DNA from: Isoptericola halalbus
GTDB lineage: Bacteria; Actinomycetota; Actinomycetes; Actinomycetales; Cellulomonadaceae
NCBI GenBank assembly: GCA_009663185.1
Contig: VJZX01000002.1
Location: 62,001 to 126,000, forward strand
DNA length: 64,000 nt
Reading direction: 5' to 3'
The translations under genes and the position numbers were made by a program. Shown here piece by piece: positions 57,455 through 64,000 of this stretch. The notes below the pieces were generated by a model. That model worked only from the letters and a program-made list of their open reading frames with translations. It had not been told where the DNA came from and did not search any database. Numbering within the stretch: the stretch's first letter is position 1; every line of letters starts with the position of its first letter.

Positions 57455-58903
57455 ATGTCAGCTCGTGCACAGATCGGTGTCACCGGACTTGCGGTCATGG
57501 GCCGCAACCTGGCGCGCAACTTCGCCCGGCACGGTTTCACCGTGGCGGTGCACAACCGCAGCTACGCCAAGACGGCCTCGCTGATCACCGAGGCCGGCCA
57601 CGAGGGCGACTTCGTGCCGTCGGAGTCGGTGGCCGACTTCGTCGCCTCGCTCGAGCGGCCGCGCAAGGTCGTCGTCATGGTCAAGGCGGGCGCCGCGACC
57701 GACGCCGTCATCGACGAGCTCGTGCCCCTGCTGTCCGAGGGCGACATCGTCGTGGACGCCGGCAACGCCCACTTCCCGGACACGATCCGCCGGGAGAAGG
57801 CGCTGCGCGAGCGCGGCCTGCATTTCGTCGGCACGGGCGTCTCGGGCGGCGAGGAGGGCGCCCTGCTGGGCCCGTCGATCATGCCCGGCGGCACGCGGGA
57901 GTCCTATGAGTCGCTCGGCCCGATCCTGGAGGCGATCTCGGCCAAGGTCGACGGCACCCCGTGCTGCGCCTACGTCGGTCCGGACGGCGCGGGCCACTTC
58001 GTCAAGATGGTGCACAACGGCATCGAGTACGCCGACATGCAGCTCATCGCCGAGGCCTACGACCTGCTCCGCCAGGGCCTGGGCGCCTCGGCCGCCGAGA
58101 TCGGCAAGATCTTCGAGGAGTGGAACTCAGGCGACCTGGAGTCGTTCCTCATCGAGATCACCGCCAAGGTCCTCGCGCACACCGACGCCGCCACGGGGCA
58201 GGCGTTCGTCGACGTCGTGCTCGACCAGGCCGAGCAGAAGGGCACCGGCCGCTGGACCGTGCAGAACGGCCTGGACCTGGGCGTGCCGATCACCGGCATC
58301 GCCGAGGCGACGTTCGCGCGCGCCCTGTCCGGCTCGGTCCCGCAGCGCGAGGCCGGGCGCGCCGCGCTGCCCGCGGACGCCGCACCGCTGCAGGTGCCCG
58401 CCGACGACGCCGCGCGCGCCGCGTTCGTCCAGGACGTGCGCCAGGCGCTGTACGCCTCCAAGGTCGTGGCCTACTCCCAGGGCTTCGACCAGATCGCGGC
58501 GGCGTCGGCCGAGAACGGCTGGGACATCGACCGCGGCGCGATGGCCCGGATCTGGCGCGGCGGCTGCATCATCCGCGCCCGGTTCCTGAACCGCATCACC
58601 GAGGCGTACGACCGCGACCCAGACCTGCCGCTGCTGCTCGCCGACCCGTACTTCACCCAGGCCGTGTCCACCGGCCTGGCCGCGTGGCGCCGCGTGGTGG
58701 CGCAGGCCGCGGCCGCGGGCATCCCGACCCCGGCGTTCTCGTCCTCGCTGGCGTACTACGACGGCGTGCGCGCCGAGCGCCTGCCGGCCGCGCTCATCCA
58801 GGCCCAGCGCGACTACTTCGGCGCACACACCTACCGGCGCACCGACCGCGAGGGCTCGTTCCACACCCAGTGGTCCGGCGACCGTTCCGAAGTGGAGGCG
58901 TGA
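57455..58903 (+). CDS. gnd: 6-phosphogluconate dehydrogenase (decarboxylating)
   Basis: A 482-residue long-type 6PGDH of the pentose phosphate pathway. The Rossmann loop is GLAVMGRNLARNFARHG, with NRS after the second strand, which favours NADP. The substrate and catalytic motifs are VGTGVSGGEEGALLGPSIMP, GAGHFVKMVHNGIEYADMQL (catalytic Lys) and GGCIIRARFLNRI. The start is ATG 57455, with CAGGAAG upstream. Its stop overlaps the next GTG by 4 bases, so it is translationally coupled to the ATP-grasp ligases, an unusual partner for a metabolic enzyme. Confidence 0.96.
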   Translation: MSARAQIGVTGLAVMGRNLARNFARHGFTVAVHNRSYAKTASLITEAGHEGDFVPSESVADFVASLERPRKVVVMVKAGAATDAVIDELVPLLSEGDIVVDAGNAHFPDTIRREKALRERGLHFVGTGVSGGEEGALLGPSIMPGGTRESYESLGPILEAISAKVDGTPCCAYVGPDGAGHFVKMVHNGIEYADMQLIAEAYDLLRQGLGASAAEIGKIFEEWNSGDLESFLIEITAKVLAHTDAATGQAFVDVVLDQAEQKGTGRWTVQNGLDLGVPITGIAEATFARALSGSVPQREAGRAALPADAAPLQVPADDAARAAFVQDVRQALYASKVVAYSQGFDQIAAASAENGWDIDRGAMARIWRGGCIIRARFLNRITEAYDRDPDLPLLLADPYFTQAVSTGLAAWRRVVAQAAAAGIPTPAFSSSLAYYDGVRAERLPAALIQAQRDYFGAHTYRRTDREGSFHTQWSGDRSEVEA

Positions 58904-60210
58904 GCGCACCCGTGGCCACCGTCGCCTCGACCCCGGGCTTCCGCCCGGTCATCGTCGGCTCCGACATCGGCGTCTACGGCCTCACGCGCTCGTTCCACGA
59001 GCGCTACGGCGTGCGCACGACGGTCGTCGCGTTCGCCGAGCCCGGGCCCATCGCCTACTCGCGCCTCATCGACACCGTCCTCTCGGGCACCGCGCCGCAG
59101 GAGATCGTCGCGACACTCGTGCGGGTCGCGCGCGAGCATGTCGCCGGGTCGCCGGACCGGCTCGTGCTGCTCACGAACATGGACTGGGTCGTGCGAGTGC
59201 TCGTCCACCACCGGGCCGAGCTCGAGGATGCGGGGTACGTCGTCCCGTTGGCCGACGCCGCGCTCATCGACCGCATCAGCGACAAGGCCGAGTTCTCCGC
59301 GATCTGCACCGAGCTCGGCATCCCGACACCGGGCACGGTCATCCAGGACTTCGCCGGAGCCGCCGACCCGGCGTGGGCGCCGCTGCCGGTCGACTTCCCG
59401 TTCCCCGTGATCGCCAAGCCGGCGAGCAGCGCGGACTACCACGACGTGAGGTTCGCCGGGAAGAAGAAGATCTATGAGATCGCCACGCCCGCCGAGCTCG
59501 ACCGGCTCCTGACGAGCCTGCGCGAGGCCGGGTTCCGCGGCCGCTTCCTCGTCCAGGAGATGATCCCGGGCGACGACACGCAGATGCGCTCGGTCACCAC
59601 GTACACCGACACGTCGGGCCGCGTCACCCTGCGCTGCTCGGCGCACGTGCTCCTCGAGGAGCGCACCCCGGCGGCGCGGGGCAACCCGTCGGCGATGATC
59701 GTCGAGCCCATCGAGGATGTCCTCGACGCCGCCCAGCGGATCTGCGAGCACTCCGGCTGGCGCGGGTTCGCGAACTTCGACGTCAAGCTCGACCCGCGCG
59801 ACGGCGTGTTCAAGTTCTTCGAGCAGAACCCGCGCATCGGGCGCAACAACTACTACGTCACCGCGGGCGGGCAGAACCCGACCGAGGTCCTCGTGGACGA
59901 CGTCGTGCACGGCGTGCGCCGCGAGCCGGTCACGGCCACGCGCGAGGTGCTCTACGCCGTCGTGCCGCACCGGCTCCTGCGCCGGTACGTGCTCGACCCG
60001 GCGCTGAACGCGCGCGTCGTCGGCCTCATGAGGTCGGGGCGGACGGTGCACCCGCTGCGGTACCGTGCGGACGCGGCGCCCCGCCGTCGGATCTACGTGC
60101 TCACCGCGCTGGTCAACCACTGGCGCAAGTACCGCACCTACTACCCGATCGAGGCGCTGCGCAAGAACTACGCGGCCAACTCCTCGACGCCCGCCACGGA
60201 GGTCCGGTGA
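58900..60210 (+). CDS. ATP-grasp carboxylate-amine ligase, paralogue 1 (probable peptidoglycan cross-bridge ligase)
   Basis: A 436-residue ATP-grasp enzyme. The N-terminal domain begins PVIVGSDIGVYGLTRSFHER. The ATP-grasp core (about 130-330) has FPVIAKPASSADYHDVRFAG, FLVQEMIPGDDTQMRSVTTY, and the Mg-binding FFEQNPRIGRNNYY. The family adds an amino acid to a carboxylate through an acyl-phosphate. Members next to Asp/Glu racemases include the D-aspartate ligase that builds peptidoglycan side bridges (Aslfm of Enterococcus faecium, from memory). It starts at GTG 58900, overlapping gnd by 4 bases, and overlaps the second ATP-grasp gene by 4 bases. It is soluble and cytoplasmic. Confidence 0.8.
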   Translation: MSAPVATVASTPGFRPVIVGSDIGVYGLTRSFHERYGVRTTVVAFAEPGPIAYSRLIDTVLSGTAPQEIVATLVRVAREHVAGSPDRLVLLTNMDWVVRVLVHHRAELEDAGYVVPLADAALIDRISDKAEFSAICTELGIPTPGTVIQDFAGAADPAWAPLPVDFPFPVIAKPASSADYHDVRFAGKKKIYEIATPAELDRLLTSLREAGFRGRFLVQEMIPGDDTQMRSVTTYTDTSGRVTLRCSAHVLLEERTPAARGNPSAMIVEPIEDVLDAAQRICEHSGWRGFANFDVKLDPRDGVFKFFEQNPRIGRNNYYVTAGGQNPTEVLVDDVVHGVRREPVTATREVLYAVVPHRLLRRYVLDPALNARVVGLMRSGRTVHPLRYRADAAPRRRIYVLTALVNHWRKYRTYYPIEALRKNYAANSSTPATEVR

Positions 60211-61490
60211 CCCGTCGACTGCAGCCCGTCGTCCTCGGCGGCGACATCGGTGCCTACAGCCTCGCCCGGGCGTTCCACGAGGCGTACGGGGTCAAGGCGA
60301 TCGTCGTCTCGGGTGCCTCGACGGGGCTCGTGCGGTACTCGCGGATCCTGACCCACGTGGTCGAGCCGCGCATCGACGACCCGGAGGCGATCGTCGCCCG
60401 CCTGCGCACGATCGCCGACCAGCACGGCGACGCCGAGCTGGTCGCGGTCGGCTCCGCGGACTGGCTCGTGCGCACGCTCGTGCAGAATCGGGACCGGCTG
60501 GAAGACCGCTACACGATCCCGTACGTCCGCGAGGACCTGCTGGCGCGCCTCACGGACAAGGAGGAGTTCGGCGCGCTGTGCGCCGAGCTCGGCATCGCGC
60601 ACCCGACCACGGTCGTGCACGACGTCGCGGCGGGCGGCGAGCCGGACACGAGCGGCCTGACGTTCCCCGTCATCGCGAAGGCCGCGAGCACCGCCGCCTA
60701 TCACGACGTCGAGTTCGCCGGGAAGAAGAAGGTCTTCACCGTCGCGACGCGCACCGAGCTGGTCGACCTGCTCGCCCGCGTGCACGATGCGGGCTACACC
60801 GGGTCGTTCATCATCCAGGACTACATCCCGGGCGACGACTCGGGCATGCGGATCCTCACGTGCTACTCGGACGCGCAGGGCAAGGTGCGCTTCTCGGCGT
60901 TCGGGCACGTGCTGCTCGAGGAGCACACGCCCGGCGCGCTCGGGAACCCGGCCGGCATCATCACCGGGCTGCAGCCCGAGGTCGTCGACCAGGCGCGTCG
61001 GCTGCTCGAGCACGTGGGCTGGACCGGCTTCGCCAACTTCGACCTGAAGTACGACCCGCGTGACGGCCGGTACGTGTTCTTCGAGCTCAACCCCCGCCTG
61101 GGCCGGTCGAACTTCTACATCACCGGCGCGGGTGCGAACCCGGTGCGGTTCTACGTGCACGAGCACCTGCACGGCCTCGACCCGGAGCCGCGGGCGGTGC
61201 TGGGTCCGAAGACGGCGCTGACGCCCGACGGTGAGCTCTCCAACGAGCACCTGTACACCGTGCTGCCGGGGCCGTTGCTGCGCAGGTACGTCGCCGACCG
61301 TGGTCTGCGGTCCCGCACCCGGCGGCTGCAGCTCACCATGCGCGCGACCAACCCGCTCTGGTACCGCCACGAGTGGGACCCGCGCCGCGTCGCGTACCTC
61401 GTCGTCGCGCAGCTCAACCACGTCCGTAAGTACGCGCGGCACTACCCGGTGGCACAGGCCCGCGCGCTCGCGTGGAAGGGCGGGGCGTGA
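60207..61490 (+). CDS. ATP-grasp carboxylate-amine ligase, paralogue 2 (probable peptidoglycan cross-bridge ligase)
   Basis: A 427-residue paralogue of the preceding gene with the same architecture: VVLGGDIGAYSLARAFHEAY, FPVIAKAASTAAYHDVEFAG, FIIQDYIPGDDSGMRILTCY, and FFELNPRLGRSNFYITGAG. The two align along their whole length, so they arose by tandem duplication. Both keep the Mg/ATP residues, so both should be active but may differ in the amino acid added. The conserved C-terminal HVRKYARHYPVAQ matches HWRKYRTYYPIEA of the first copy. It is coupled by 4-base overlaps on both sides. See the racemase entry for the joint role. Confidence 0.8.
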   Translation: MTRRLQPVVLGGDIGAYSLARAFHEAYGVKAIVVSGASTGLVRYSRILTHVVEPRIDDPEAIVARLRTIADQHGDAELVAVGSADWLVRTLVQNRDRLEDRYTIPYVREDLLARLTDKEEFGALCAELGIAHPTTVVHDVAAGGEPDTSGLTFPVIAKAASTAAYHDVEFAGKKKVFTVATRTELVDLLARVHDAGYTGSFIIQDYIPGDDSGMRILTCYSDAQGKVRFSAFGHVLLEEHTPGALGNPAGIITGLQPEVVDQARRLLEHVGWTGFANFDLKYDPRDGRYVFFELNPRLGRSNFYITGAGANPVRFYVHEHLHGLDPEPRAVLGPKTALTPDGELSNEHLYTVLPGPLLRRYVADRGLRSRTRRLQLTMRATNPLWYRHEWDPRRVAYLVVAQLNHVRKYARHYPVAQARALAWKGGA

Positions 61491-62203
61491 GAGGGGCGGA
61501 CCTGCCCGTCGGGGTGATCGGGGGCGTCGGGCCGCTCGCGACCGCCTACTTCCTGCAGCGCGTCGTGCAGCGCACGCACGCCGAGCGCGACCAGGACCAC
61601 GTCGACCTGGTCGTGCTCAACCACGCGACGATCCCGGACCGGACGGACTACGTCCTGGGACGCTCCGACGCCGACCCGGGTCCCGTGCTCGCGCGCGATG
61701 CCAAGCGGCTCGAGGAGTTCGGCGTCAGCTTCCTCGTGATGCCGTGCAACACGGCGCACTACTTCACCCAGCAGGTGCTCGACGCGATCAGCACGCCGTT
61801 CGTGTCGATCGTCGACGTGACGGTCGCGGCGGCGCGCCGGCGGGTGCCCGGGACCCGGACCGTGGGTCTGCTCGCCACGGCCGGTACGGTCGCCTCGCGC
61901 GTGTACGACGACGCGTTCGCCGCGCACGGGATCTCGGTCATCACCCCGGAGCCCGACGACCAGGACGTGGTCAACCGCGTGATCTACGAGCAGGTCAAGG
62001 CCGGGCGCCCGTCCGACCCGGACGCGCTGCGTGCGGTCGCGGGCCGGCTCGTCGACCAGGGCGCCTCGGTCGTGGTGCTGGGCTGCACCGAGCTGTCGGT
62101 GGCCGCCGTCGACCACCACCTGCTCGACGAGCCGCCGTTCCTCGACTCGATGGACGAGCTCGTGCGCGCGACGATCGAGGCCGCAGGCCACGAGGTGCGC
62201 TGA
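61487..62203 (+). CDS. Aspartate/glutamate racemase family protein
   Basis: A 238-residue Asp/Glu racemase. The N-terminal VGVIGGVGPLATAYFLQRVV is characteristic of aspartate racemases. Both catalytic Cys are present, in VMPCNTAHYF (near 86) and VVLGCTELSV (near 200). The second motif, GCTEL rather than GCTHYP of MurI, points to aspartate-type racemases. It would make D-Asp (or D-Glu) for the two ATP-grasp ligases encoded just upstream, with which it overlaps by 4 bases. This gene set suggests D-amino-acid incorporation into the cell wall bridge. The stereo- and substrate specificity is inferred. Confidence 0.85.
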   Translation: MRGADLPVGVIGGVGPLATAYFLQRVVQRTHAERDQDHVDLVVLNHATIPDRTDYVLGRSDADPGPVLARDAKRLEEFGVSFLVMPCNTAHYFTQQVLDAISTPFVSIVDVTVAAARRRVPGTRTVGLLATAGTVASRVYDDAFAAHGISVITPEPDDQDVVNRVIYEQVKAGRPSDPDALRAVAGRLVDQGASVVVLGCTELSVAAVDHHLLDEPPFLDSMDELVRATIEAAGHEVR

Positions 62204-62241: not shown

Positions 62242-62748
62242 TCAGCCGAGGCGGCTGGTCCCCGAGTACAGGTGCAGCACGGGGACGTGCAGCTCCTCGC
62301 GGGCCCGCGACGCCCAGTCGGCGTGGAACGTGTCCTCGACGGCGTGCGGGTACGTCACGACGACGACCTCGCGCACGCCGTCGTGGCCGTCGGCCCCGCC
62401 GCTGGCGGCGACCGCGGTCCTCAGGGCGGGAAGCGGGTCGTCCTGGGTGACCGCCCCCTCGGCGGCGGCGCCCGCCCGGCGCAGGAGTCTCAGCGAGATC
62501 GCGAGCTGCTCGGCCGCGGTCGCGGTGGCCTCGGCCGGCGTCGGCTCCCGTCGGATGAGCTCCTCCCACGCCTCGCGCAGCTCGCCCAGCCCCAGGTGGT
62601 CGATGATCGAGGCCACGACGTTGCGATCGGTGTCGGCGGGCACGAGCACGCGGTAGTCGACGTCCTCGCCCGCGTGCAGGGACGTGATGTGCTCGACGTC
62701 GGCGGGGTTAAGGGCGTCCTCGGTGAGGATGACAATCGTCTGCGGCAT
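62242..62748 (-). CDS. Hypothetical protein
   Basis: A 168-residue soluble protein. The N-terminus MPQTIVILTEDALNPADVEH has a Rossmann-like first strand. A helical middle part (LREAWEELIRREPTPAEATA) follows, and the C-terminal strand VREVVVVTYPHAVEDTFHAD precedes WASRAREELHVPVLHLYSG. The alternating pattern hints at a universal-stress-like alpha/beta fold, but no family is assigned. It ends just past the racemase and lies 10 bases downstream of the reductase gene, in the same direction, so they may be cotranscribed. Confidence 0.6.
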   Translation of the reverse strand: MPQTIVILTEDALNPADVEHITSLHAGEDVDYRVLVPADTDRNVVASIIDHLGLGELREAWEELIRREPTPAEATATAAEQLAISLRLLRRAGAAAEGAVTQDDPLPALRTAVAASGGADGHDGVREVVVVTYPHAVEDTFHADWASRAREELHVPVLHLYSGTSRLG

Positions 62749-62757
62749 GGCAGCAAA

Positions 62758-63564
62758 CTACGGCAGCAGCGCCGCCGACGCCGCTCGGTCGATCTCCCAG
62801 CGTGCGATGAGGGTCCCGCTGCCGGGCGCGACGAGCAGGTGGCCCAGCCGGGCGGGGACCGGGGGTCCCGACGACGCCCCGAGCGGGCCGTGCCCCGCGA
62901 TGATCCGGCCCGGCCCCGGCCCGACGAGCTCCGGCGTCGTCGTCACGCACAGCTCGTCGACGACCCCCGCGGCGAGCATGGTGCCGAGCAGCCGCGGGCC
63001 ACCCTCCGAGAGCACGCGCGTCATCCCGCGCTCCGCCAGCGCGTCGAGCGCCGCGGCGAGGTCGACGTGACCGTCCCCTTCAGGGCCCGGCACCTCGATG
63101 ACCCGGTCGGCGCCGACGGCCGCGGCCGCGGGTGGCGCCCCGGCCCGGCCTGTGACGACCCACGGCCGGTGCCGGTCACCGAGCACCCTCTCGGGGAGGT
63201 GCCCGTGGCGCGTGACCACCGCGAGCTCGAGCGGTGCCCCGCTGCACAGGTGCTCCAGGCCCCGCGGGCGCTTGAGCGTGGTGTACCGCTCGACCCGCGC
63301 CGTGCCGGCCCCCACGAGCACGACGTCGGCCAGCGCGCGCAGGACGCGGAAGACCCGCAAGTCGGCCGCGTCGTTGATCGAGCCGGACCGGTGGTCCGGC
63401 CCCCACGCCGCGCCGTCGACCGCCGAGACCATGTTGACGCGCAGGTGCCGGGTGCCGGGCGGGCCGGCGTCGTACAGGGCGGCGAGCCGGGTCTCGGCGG
63501 GGTCGGGCGGCAGGAGCTCGGTGCTCGGCGCGACGAGCTCGAGCGGCGGGGTGTCTGGGCTCAC
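62758..63564 (-). CDS. RibD C-terminal-like pyrimidine reductase family protein
   Basis: A 268-residue dihydrofolate-reductase-fold protein of the RibD_C group: HLRVNMVSAVDGAAWGPDHR, DAADLRVFRVLRALADVVLV with GAGTARVERY, and RVLSEGGPRLLGTMLAAGVV. RibD_C reduces the ribosyl group of a riboflavin precursor with NADPH. Stand-alone homologues in Actinobacteria (Rv2671 type, from memory) have weak dihydrofolate reductase activity. No other riboflavin gene is nearby. I use the GTG at 63564. It is divergent from zapE with about 37 bases between starts. Confidence 0.85.
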   Translation of the reverse strand: MSPDTPPLELVAPSTELLPPDPAETRLAALYDAGPPGTRHLRVNMVSAVDGAAWGPDHRSGSINDAADLRVFRVLRALADVVLVGAGTARVERYTTLKRPRGLEHLCSGAPLELAVVTRHGHLPERVLGDRHRPWVVTGRAGAPPAAAAVGADRVIEVPGPEGDGHVDLAAALDALAERGMTRVLSEGGPRLLGTMLAAGVVDELCVTTTPELVGPGPGRIIAGHGPLGASSGPPVPARLGHLLVAPGSGTLIARWEIDRAASAALLP

Positions 63565-63601
63565 AGCGCCCAGGCTACGGCCGCGCGTAGGCTGGGACCT
63601 C

Positions 63602-64000
63602 GTGACCGCCGCCCCGGAGACCTCGTCGGACCCGACGTCGCACGCCCCCCGCACGCTGACAGGCGTCCGCCCGTCGGTTTCCCCGCAGCGGCTGCTCGCC
63701 GATCTCGTGCCACCGCGCCACTTCGCCGACGCGCGGTTCTCGACCTACCGCGCCAACCCGGCCTACCCGAGCCAGGCGAGCACGCTGGCGCGCCTGGAGG
63801 AGGTCGCGCGCCAGATCACCGCCCCGCCTCGGACGGGCCTGCGTGCGCTGCTCGGCCGGCGTCCCGCGCCGCCCGCGGTCTACATGGACGGCGGCTTCGG
63901 CGTCGGCAAGACGCACCTGCTCACGTCGCTCGCGCACGCCGTGCGTGCGGAGCTGGGCGCGGGTGCCGCTGCGTTCGGCACGTTCGTCGAGTACACCAAC
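63602..64000 (+). CDS. zapE: Cell division protein ZapE / AFG1-like ATPase (3' end outside window)
   Basis: The first 133 codons of an AFG1/ZapE ATPase. After a variable N-terminus (GTG 63602) come RPSVSPQRLLADLVPPRHFA, YRANPAYPSQASTLARLEEV, and the Walker A motif MDGGFGVGKTHLLTSLAHAV (about 97-104 for the P-loop). The GFGVGKTHL variant is typical of actinobacterial ZapE. In Escherichia coli ZapE acts at the Z ring. The frame is open to the last base of the window. Confidence 0.88.
   Translation, partial: MTAAPETSSDPTSHAPRTLTGVRPSVSPQRLLADLVPPRHFADARFSTYRANPAYPSQASTLARLEEVARQITAPPRTGLRALLGRRPAPPAVYMDGGFGVGKTHLLTSLAHAVRAELGAGAAAFGTFVEYTN

Follow-up and report, generated by a model that had tools for sequence, protein, structure and literature searches.

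In a 64,000-nucleotide window of the Isoptericola halalbus genome (assembly GCA_009663185.1, contig VJZX01000002.1, positions 62,001 to 126,000), gnd is followed by two genes for ATP-grasp ligases, here termed lig1 and lig2, and by a gene for an amino acid racemase. The best overall explanation, to which we assign a probability of roughly three in four, is that the three genes after gnd build an interpeptide bridge of the A4 type. Its parts differ in strength: it is highly probable that the gene set is a bridge locus and likely that lig2 and the racemase make D-aspartate (D-Asp) bridges, while a second-residue role for lig1 is tentative and the least sure part; the reactions are predicted throughout. 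The original prediction, made from the DNA alone, had proposed D-amino-acid cross-bridge synthesis, and this is supported by the fit to known wall types, by the contrast in MurE motifs and by PylC as the best characterised match of the ligases.

Racemase linkage, ligase phylogeny and wall chemistry

Ligase relationships were taken from a careful tree of 86 rows (ligase sequences) and from a FastTree tree of 279 rows, whose distant parts are unsure owing to several long branches. The starred clades of the 86-row tree are A, which holds lig2, B, C and D together, and a distant E; lig1 falls in a subclade of its own, C2, on a long stem branch (0.56). In the 279-row tree the superclades had support values of 91 (A+B) and 99 (C+D). 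A racemase gene adjoins 73 of the 81 A+B ligases on the same strand and none of the 169 ligases of C, C2 and D, with clade E being mixed; the exception is in Brachybacterium, where in 11 rows a C ligase and the racemase belonging to the adjacent A ligase face each other. Racemase linkage follows ligase phylogeny: counted on 251 rows, leaving out 18 opposite-strand and 10 unknown ones, it changes state 4 times on the 279-row tree versus 63 to 79 times in 200 shuffles. Within the window, lig2 is racemase-linked and lig1 is not. Six alignment positions set A+B apart from C+D, the most telling of which lies just after the conserved ExNPRxGR motif and is Ser301 in lig2 (80/81 A+B) versus Asn316 in lig1 (161/169 C+D).

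A survey of ligase presence against bridge type, as had been suggested, bears out a link through clade and racemase linkage. The rule that a racemase-linked ligase means aspartate (Asp) in the wall, and any other ligase glutamate (Glu), fits 8 of the 10 species for which both wall type and genes were available: Cellulomonas flavigena, Actinotalea bogoriensis, Actinotalea subterranea, Xylanimonas cellulosilytica, J. denitrificans, Brachybacterium faecium, B. vulturis and B. avium (genome identity inferred for the last). Wall types were taken from PMC8878594, PMC3035266, PMC3035249, PMC3035236, PMC3035206, PMC6090031 and PMC10581053. Actinotalea ferrariae, A. fermentans, A. solisilvae, Brachybacterium equifaecis, B. 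huguangmaarense and Beutenbergia cavernae have published wall types but were left out of the comparison, their loci not being located; C. fimi, Sanguibacter, Oerskovia and others did not enter the count. X. cellulosilytica matters most, because it combines the gene order of the window with an L-Lys-D-Asp wall (PMC3035249).

The loci of 24 Brachybacterium genomes vary in a way that parallels this rule. Nine carry an A ligase with racemase plus a C ligase, and 15 carry two C ligases with no racemase in the stretch; in the tree, the two kinds share one C ligase, and the second C ligase occupies the place of A. Of the C+C species, B. faecium and B. vulturis, whose identity is sure, have no Asp in the wall, and B. 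avium, with A and racemase, does. The pattern suggests two steps, of which one varies and is set by Glu or Asp. Allobranchiibius, which we take to be a member of the Dermacoccaceae, has a clade A ligase and a racemase. The bridge of that family has a D-Asp end (PMC6113628), and Pengzhenrongella, whose species P. frigida has a C ligase without a racemase, is described as L-Orn-D-Glu (PMC11165906).

The ligases are also unevenly distributed with respect to walls containing diaminopimelic acid (DAP), for which the DDNPR motif of MurE served as a useful but blunt proxy. Sixty of the 178 genomes of the order were chosen to cover genera, families f4 and f18 not being sampled. DENPR was counted as non-DAP, a judgement made on a Cellulomonas-genus genome that has this motif and on the ornithine reported for the C. 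flavigena wall (PMC3035266). The 34 ligase-bearing genomes divide into 23 with another motif, 7 with DDNPR and 4 unreadable, and the 26 ligase-free genomes into 20 with DDNPR and 6 with another motif. A ligase is therefore present in 7/27 genomes with the DAP-type motif versus 23/29 with others, which is not the equal presence in directly cross-linked walls that the original prediction had named as telling against it. Four of the seven DDNPR carriers belong to the Brachybacterium family, whose wall is given as A4gamma; the remaining ones include Knoellia.

FemABX aminoacyl transferases add L-residues to bridges, and bridges with an L-residue ahead of the D-residue would need a FemX-type gene. 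As the Pfam FemAB query was too weak (31/121 genomes of the family in the Genome Taxonomy Database, GTDB), a three-row profile built from the family itself was used, which gave 62/121. Clades were assigned in 65 of the 121 family genomes, those with retrieved loci, with the split ligase of one genome dropped (G012, see below). Many B, D and E ligases have a FemX-like gene within a few kb, and such a gene is found in 28/29 genomes with B, D or E versus 1/36 with only A, C or C2; without the three genomes that supplied the query, the figures are 26/27 and 0/35. J. denitrificans, with a reported L-Lys-L-Ser-D-Glu bridge (PMC3035236), has such a gene. None was found in the window's genome or genus (0/10 genomes), and lig2 should therefore act on lysine directly. 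The dropped E-type ligase (L045, 3824-5006), which has a racemase and a Fem-like gene for neighbours, is interrupted by a stop or spread over two frames, possibly through recent loss or an assembly error.

The encoded proteins and their distribution

The ligases share 46% identity. In lig2, residues K118, K158, D279, E293 and N295 are invariant across a 19-row family alignment, and lig1 keeps the Lys, Asp, Glu and Asn motif positions in a 25-row alignment. One AlphaFold model was made per ligase, and both are confident ATP-grasp folds (predicted local distance difference test scores of 88.8 and 90.8), in agreement with the earlier claim of two full-length paralogous ATP-grasp ligases with intact motifs. 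The best characterised match of the models in VIA-align was PylC, which joins D-ornithine to the lysine side chain (lysine-N-epsilon D-ornithine ligase), and the leading fold matches of lig1 are those of lig2. Foldseek ranked an L-amino-acid ligase first, but since VIA-align placed PylC higher, that protein was not treated as the closest relative. Only lig2 rises just above a curated cut-off (Pfam CPSase_L_D2, 20.7 versus 19.8 bits), and neither ligase passed any other in Pfam or NCBIfam; within the PRK12767 group of curated NCBIfam ATP-grasp families they reach at most 41.8 bits versus a cut-off of 218. A lig2 query matched nothing beyond lig1 and lig2 in the 4.1 Mb genome (E 0.001).

The racemase had been described as aspartate-type with both catalytic cysteines, and this holds: Cys87 (MPCNTAH) and Cys200 (LGCTELS) are present, the TIGR00035 cut-off is passed (206.6 versus 93.1 bits), and the Pyrococcus horikoshii aspartate racemase 1JFL matches over residues 8-233 (2.3e-53). 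It also exceeds the cut-off of NF052483, cysteate racemase CuyB (235.5 versus 190 bits). Gene context argues for aspartate as the probable substrate.

The order gnd-lig1-lig2-racemase is found in all ten genomes of the genus, that of the window included, which is more than chance would give, and each has two ligases. In a metagenome-assembled Isoptericola genome (L279), identity to the window is 96% for gnd and 93% for lig1. At least one ligase occurs in 117/121 genomes of the GTDB family, in all 68 genomes of the genus Cellulomonas with completeness of at least 99, and, at E 1e-20, in 79/178 genomes and 34/67 genera of the order; Brachybacterium has at least two matches in 38/38 genomes. The ligase-free family members are an incomplete genome of genus g5 and three genomes of genus g14 (G013, G036, G053), which lack a match, unlike nearly all of their relatives, and whose wall type would be of interest. 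The comparison of named organisms is a sample of 118 listed stretches, four of which (L268, L271, L284, L288) hold no ligase.

Proposed bridge synthesis and its alternatives

In the scheme that we propose, the racemase would convert L-Asp to D-Asp, and lig2 would use ATP to activate the D-Asp side-chain carboxylate and couple it to the side-chain amine of stem residue 3 on the cytoplasmic precursor, like AslA of lactic acid bacteria. By analogy with Xylanimonas, that residue would be lysine in Isoptericola. The most likely task of lig1 would be to add a second residue, perhaps D-Glu, onto the D-Asp; its superclade is racemase-free and tracks Glu walls, and would draw its D-Glu from the usual MurI pool. 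We infer which carboxylate and which precursor are used, in what order the residues are added and what lig1 takes as substrate. C2 ligases never stand alone, their 18 rows being accompanied by A (16), C (1) or Fem (1), which suggests a second-residue enzyme. Of the earlier suggestion that one ligase adds the D-amino acid and the other a second residue, the latter part is the best-supported idea for lig1, at somewhat under even odds.

The same pattern could amount to a code for A4 bridges across Actinomycetota, in which racemase-linked clades would supply D-Asp and others Glu, A and C would act on the diamino acid itself and B, D and E on a residue that Fem has added, and C2 and the constant Brachybacterium ligase would add a second residue. 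On this view the Isoptericola bridge would consist of two residues, D-Asp and D-Glu, a type so far undescribed. We regard this extension as speculative, plausible rather than probable.

Alternatively, lig1 and lig2 might compete for the same lysine amine, one with D-Glu and one with D-Asp, so that the one-residue bridge would be mixed or vary with conditions. Clades A and C are indeed singly present, and swap within a genus, in Cellulomonas and Actinotalea, and X. cellulosilytica, with both ligases, is published as one-residue L-Lys-D-Asp (PMC3035249). However, C2 forms a clade apart, on a branch of its own and with constant company, and the two or more ligase matches kept by every Brachybacterium genome look like two steps, leaving this alternative somewhat unlikely. 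Less probable still is that lig1 adds no bridge residue and has either shifted to another wall carboxylate or amine or become a partner subunit of lig2: its translational overlap with lig2, the near-constant pairing of C2 with A and the long C2 stem branch would suit such a role, but the conserved motif positions and shared fold matches of lig1 do not, nor does the C2 ligase of G067, which has Fem genes next to it and no A. If the gene set instead made a product outside the wall, for example a cysteate-derived compound or a small peptide, the racemase would be CuyB; this reading would accommodate the CuyB score and the poor fit of the ligases to curated families, but is very improbable given the near-universality of the ligases in the family, the chemotype fit, the Fem association and the rarity of ligases in genomes with the DAP-type MurE motif.

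Several observations weigh against bridge synthesis as set out above. The inner splits of the 279-row tree are weak (A 35, B 75, D 15). By NCBIfam naming the racemase would be a cysteate racemase, although this name is probably misleading in the present gene setting. Knoellia and Quadrisphaera, which are described as having A1gamma walls with directly linked meso-DAP, carry clade A ligases and racemases; in Knoellia (L149, L251, L276, L283) ligase, Fem-like gene and racemase occur together, and its wall may have been misdescribed. Two species depart from the rule: Actinotalea carbonis is tabled as L-Orn-D-Glu (PMC8878594) but has A and a racemase, and the genome taken for Brachybacterium nesterenkovii (identity inferred) is C+C though Asp is tabled (PMC10581053). 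The reported D-Ser and partial Asp (0.55) of A. subterranea (PMC8878594) are unexplained by the genes seen, with no Fem-like gene in its 8 kb stretch. The single-residue bridge published for X. cellulosilytica gives no reason to expect a second ligase. Four clade A rows lack a racemase (L144, L145, L146, L169; family f12); use of L-amino acids by these ligases is possible because L-residues do occur, as in the L-Lys-L-Glu bridge of Beutenbergia (PMC3035217). The same source gives this bridge for Georgenia, and Georgenia satyanarayanai has C without a racemase; Glu agrees, but in the L form, so C ligases need not use D-Glu. Our limited literature search found no wall analysis of Isoptericola.

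Gene arrangement and comparison with known systems

The claim that the four genes are coupled is borne out at all three junctions, each of which is a four-base GTGA overlap (Table 1).

Table 1. Genes of the putative bridge locus and their junctions (positions in the window)
Feature	Position	Strand	Description
gnd	57455..58903	+	NADP-dependent decarboxylating 6-phosphogluconate dehydrogenase; first gene; start ATG 57455
lig1	58900..60210	+	436 amino acids; ATP-grasp carboxylate-amine ligase, clade C2; putative second-bridge-residue enzyme
lig2	60207..61490	+	427 amino acids; ATP-grasp carboxylate-amine ligase, clade A (racemase-linked); candidate D-Asp ligase on stem lysine amine
racemase	61487..62203	+	238 amino acids; Asp/Glu type, Cys87 and Cys200; presumed D-Asp source
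GTGA overlap, gnd stop/lig1 start	58900..58903	+	Sequence
GTGA overlap, lig1 stop/lig2 start	60207..60210	+	Sequence
GTGA overlap, lig2 stop/racemase start	61487..61490	+	Sequence

By sequence, gnd is an ordinary member of its family (748 bits against NF006765, cut-off 413). Its coupling to the ligases had been called unexpected; with some stretches cut, gnd lies directly upstream of 22/66 A, 5/15 B, 41/122 C, 18/18 C2, 18/29 D and 0/26 E rows. The order is widely kept in the family and gives no clue to substrate. A functional link to gnd was set aside on account of this wide conservation across ligase clades. Directly downstream of the racemase, on the minus strand, lies a 168-amino-acid open frame (62242-62748) that matched neither Pfam nor NCBIfam at E 0.01. 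A protein with a RibD C-terminal domain (62758-63654; pyrimidine reductase family) is encoded on the same strand.

Interpeptide bridges have long been used in actinobacterial classification, and the comparison of relatives suggests that gene content may predict which amino acid forms the link. If the code outlined above is true, bridge type would be predictable from the genome, a Glu-charging ligase class would be defined beside the D-Asp one, and what is now a tedious chemotaxonomic assay could be tested one gene at a time. No paper naming D-Asp or D-Glu bridge genes in Micrococcales was found among titles and abstract openings, with subscription journals mostly uncovered, which makes this weak evidence of novelty. 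What appears new is that the actinobacterial clades A to D are separate from the ligases of lactobacilli and that a large class among them has no racemase and tracks Glu walls.

Among known systems, FemABX resembles the present one in lying near many B, D and E ligases of relatives, but was not found in the genus of the window. The pairing of an ATP-grasp D-Asp ligase with a racemase is established in lactic acid bacteria: in Lactococcus, Enterococcus and lactobacilli, AslA/Aslfm, a carboxylate-amine ligase, stands beside the aspartate racemase RacD, and the bridges are D-Asp (PMC4155827). A probable AslA-RacD pair is likewise annotated in Latilactobacillus curvatus. A racemase lies beside one of the three lactobacillar ligases (L330-L332) and beside neither of the other two; at the L330 locus no second ligase or gnd is annotated within 7 kb around. 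The ligase copy on a Lactobacillus crispatus plasmid (L332) follows asnB, which resembles AsnH, the gene for D-Asp amidation in Lactococcus. These probable AslA rows match the clade queries at 30-36% identity at best and group with Bifidobacterium and Clostridia rows in the FastTree tree, outside clades A to D. Like AslA-type enzymes, lig2 has an ATP-grasp carboxylate-amine ligase fold in its model and shares an operon with an aspartate-type racemase, but it lies outside the lactobacillar AslA group; we therefore describe it as probably working like AslA and do not file it as AslA.

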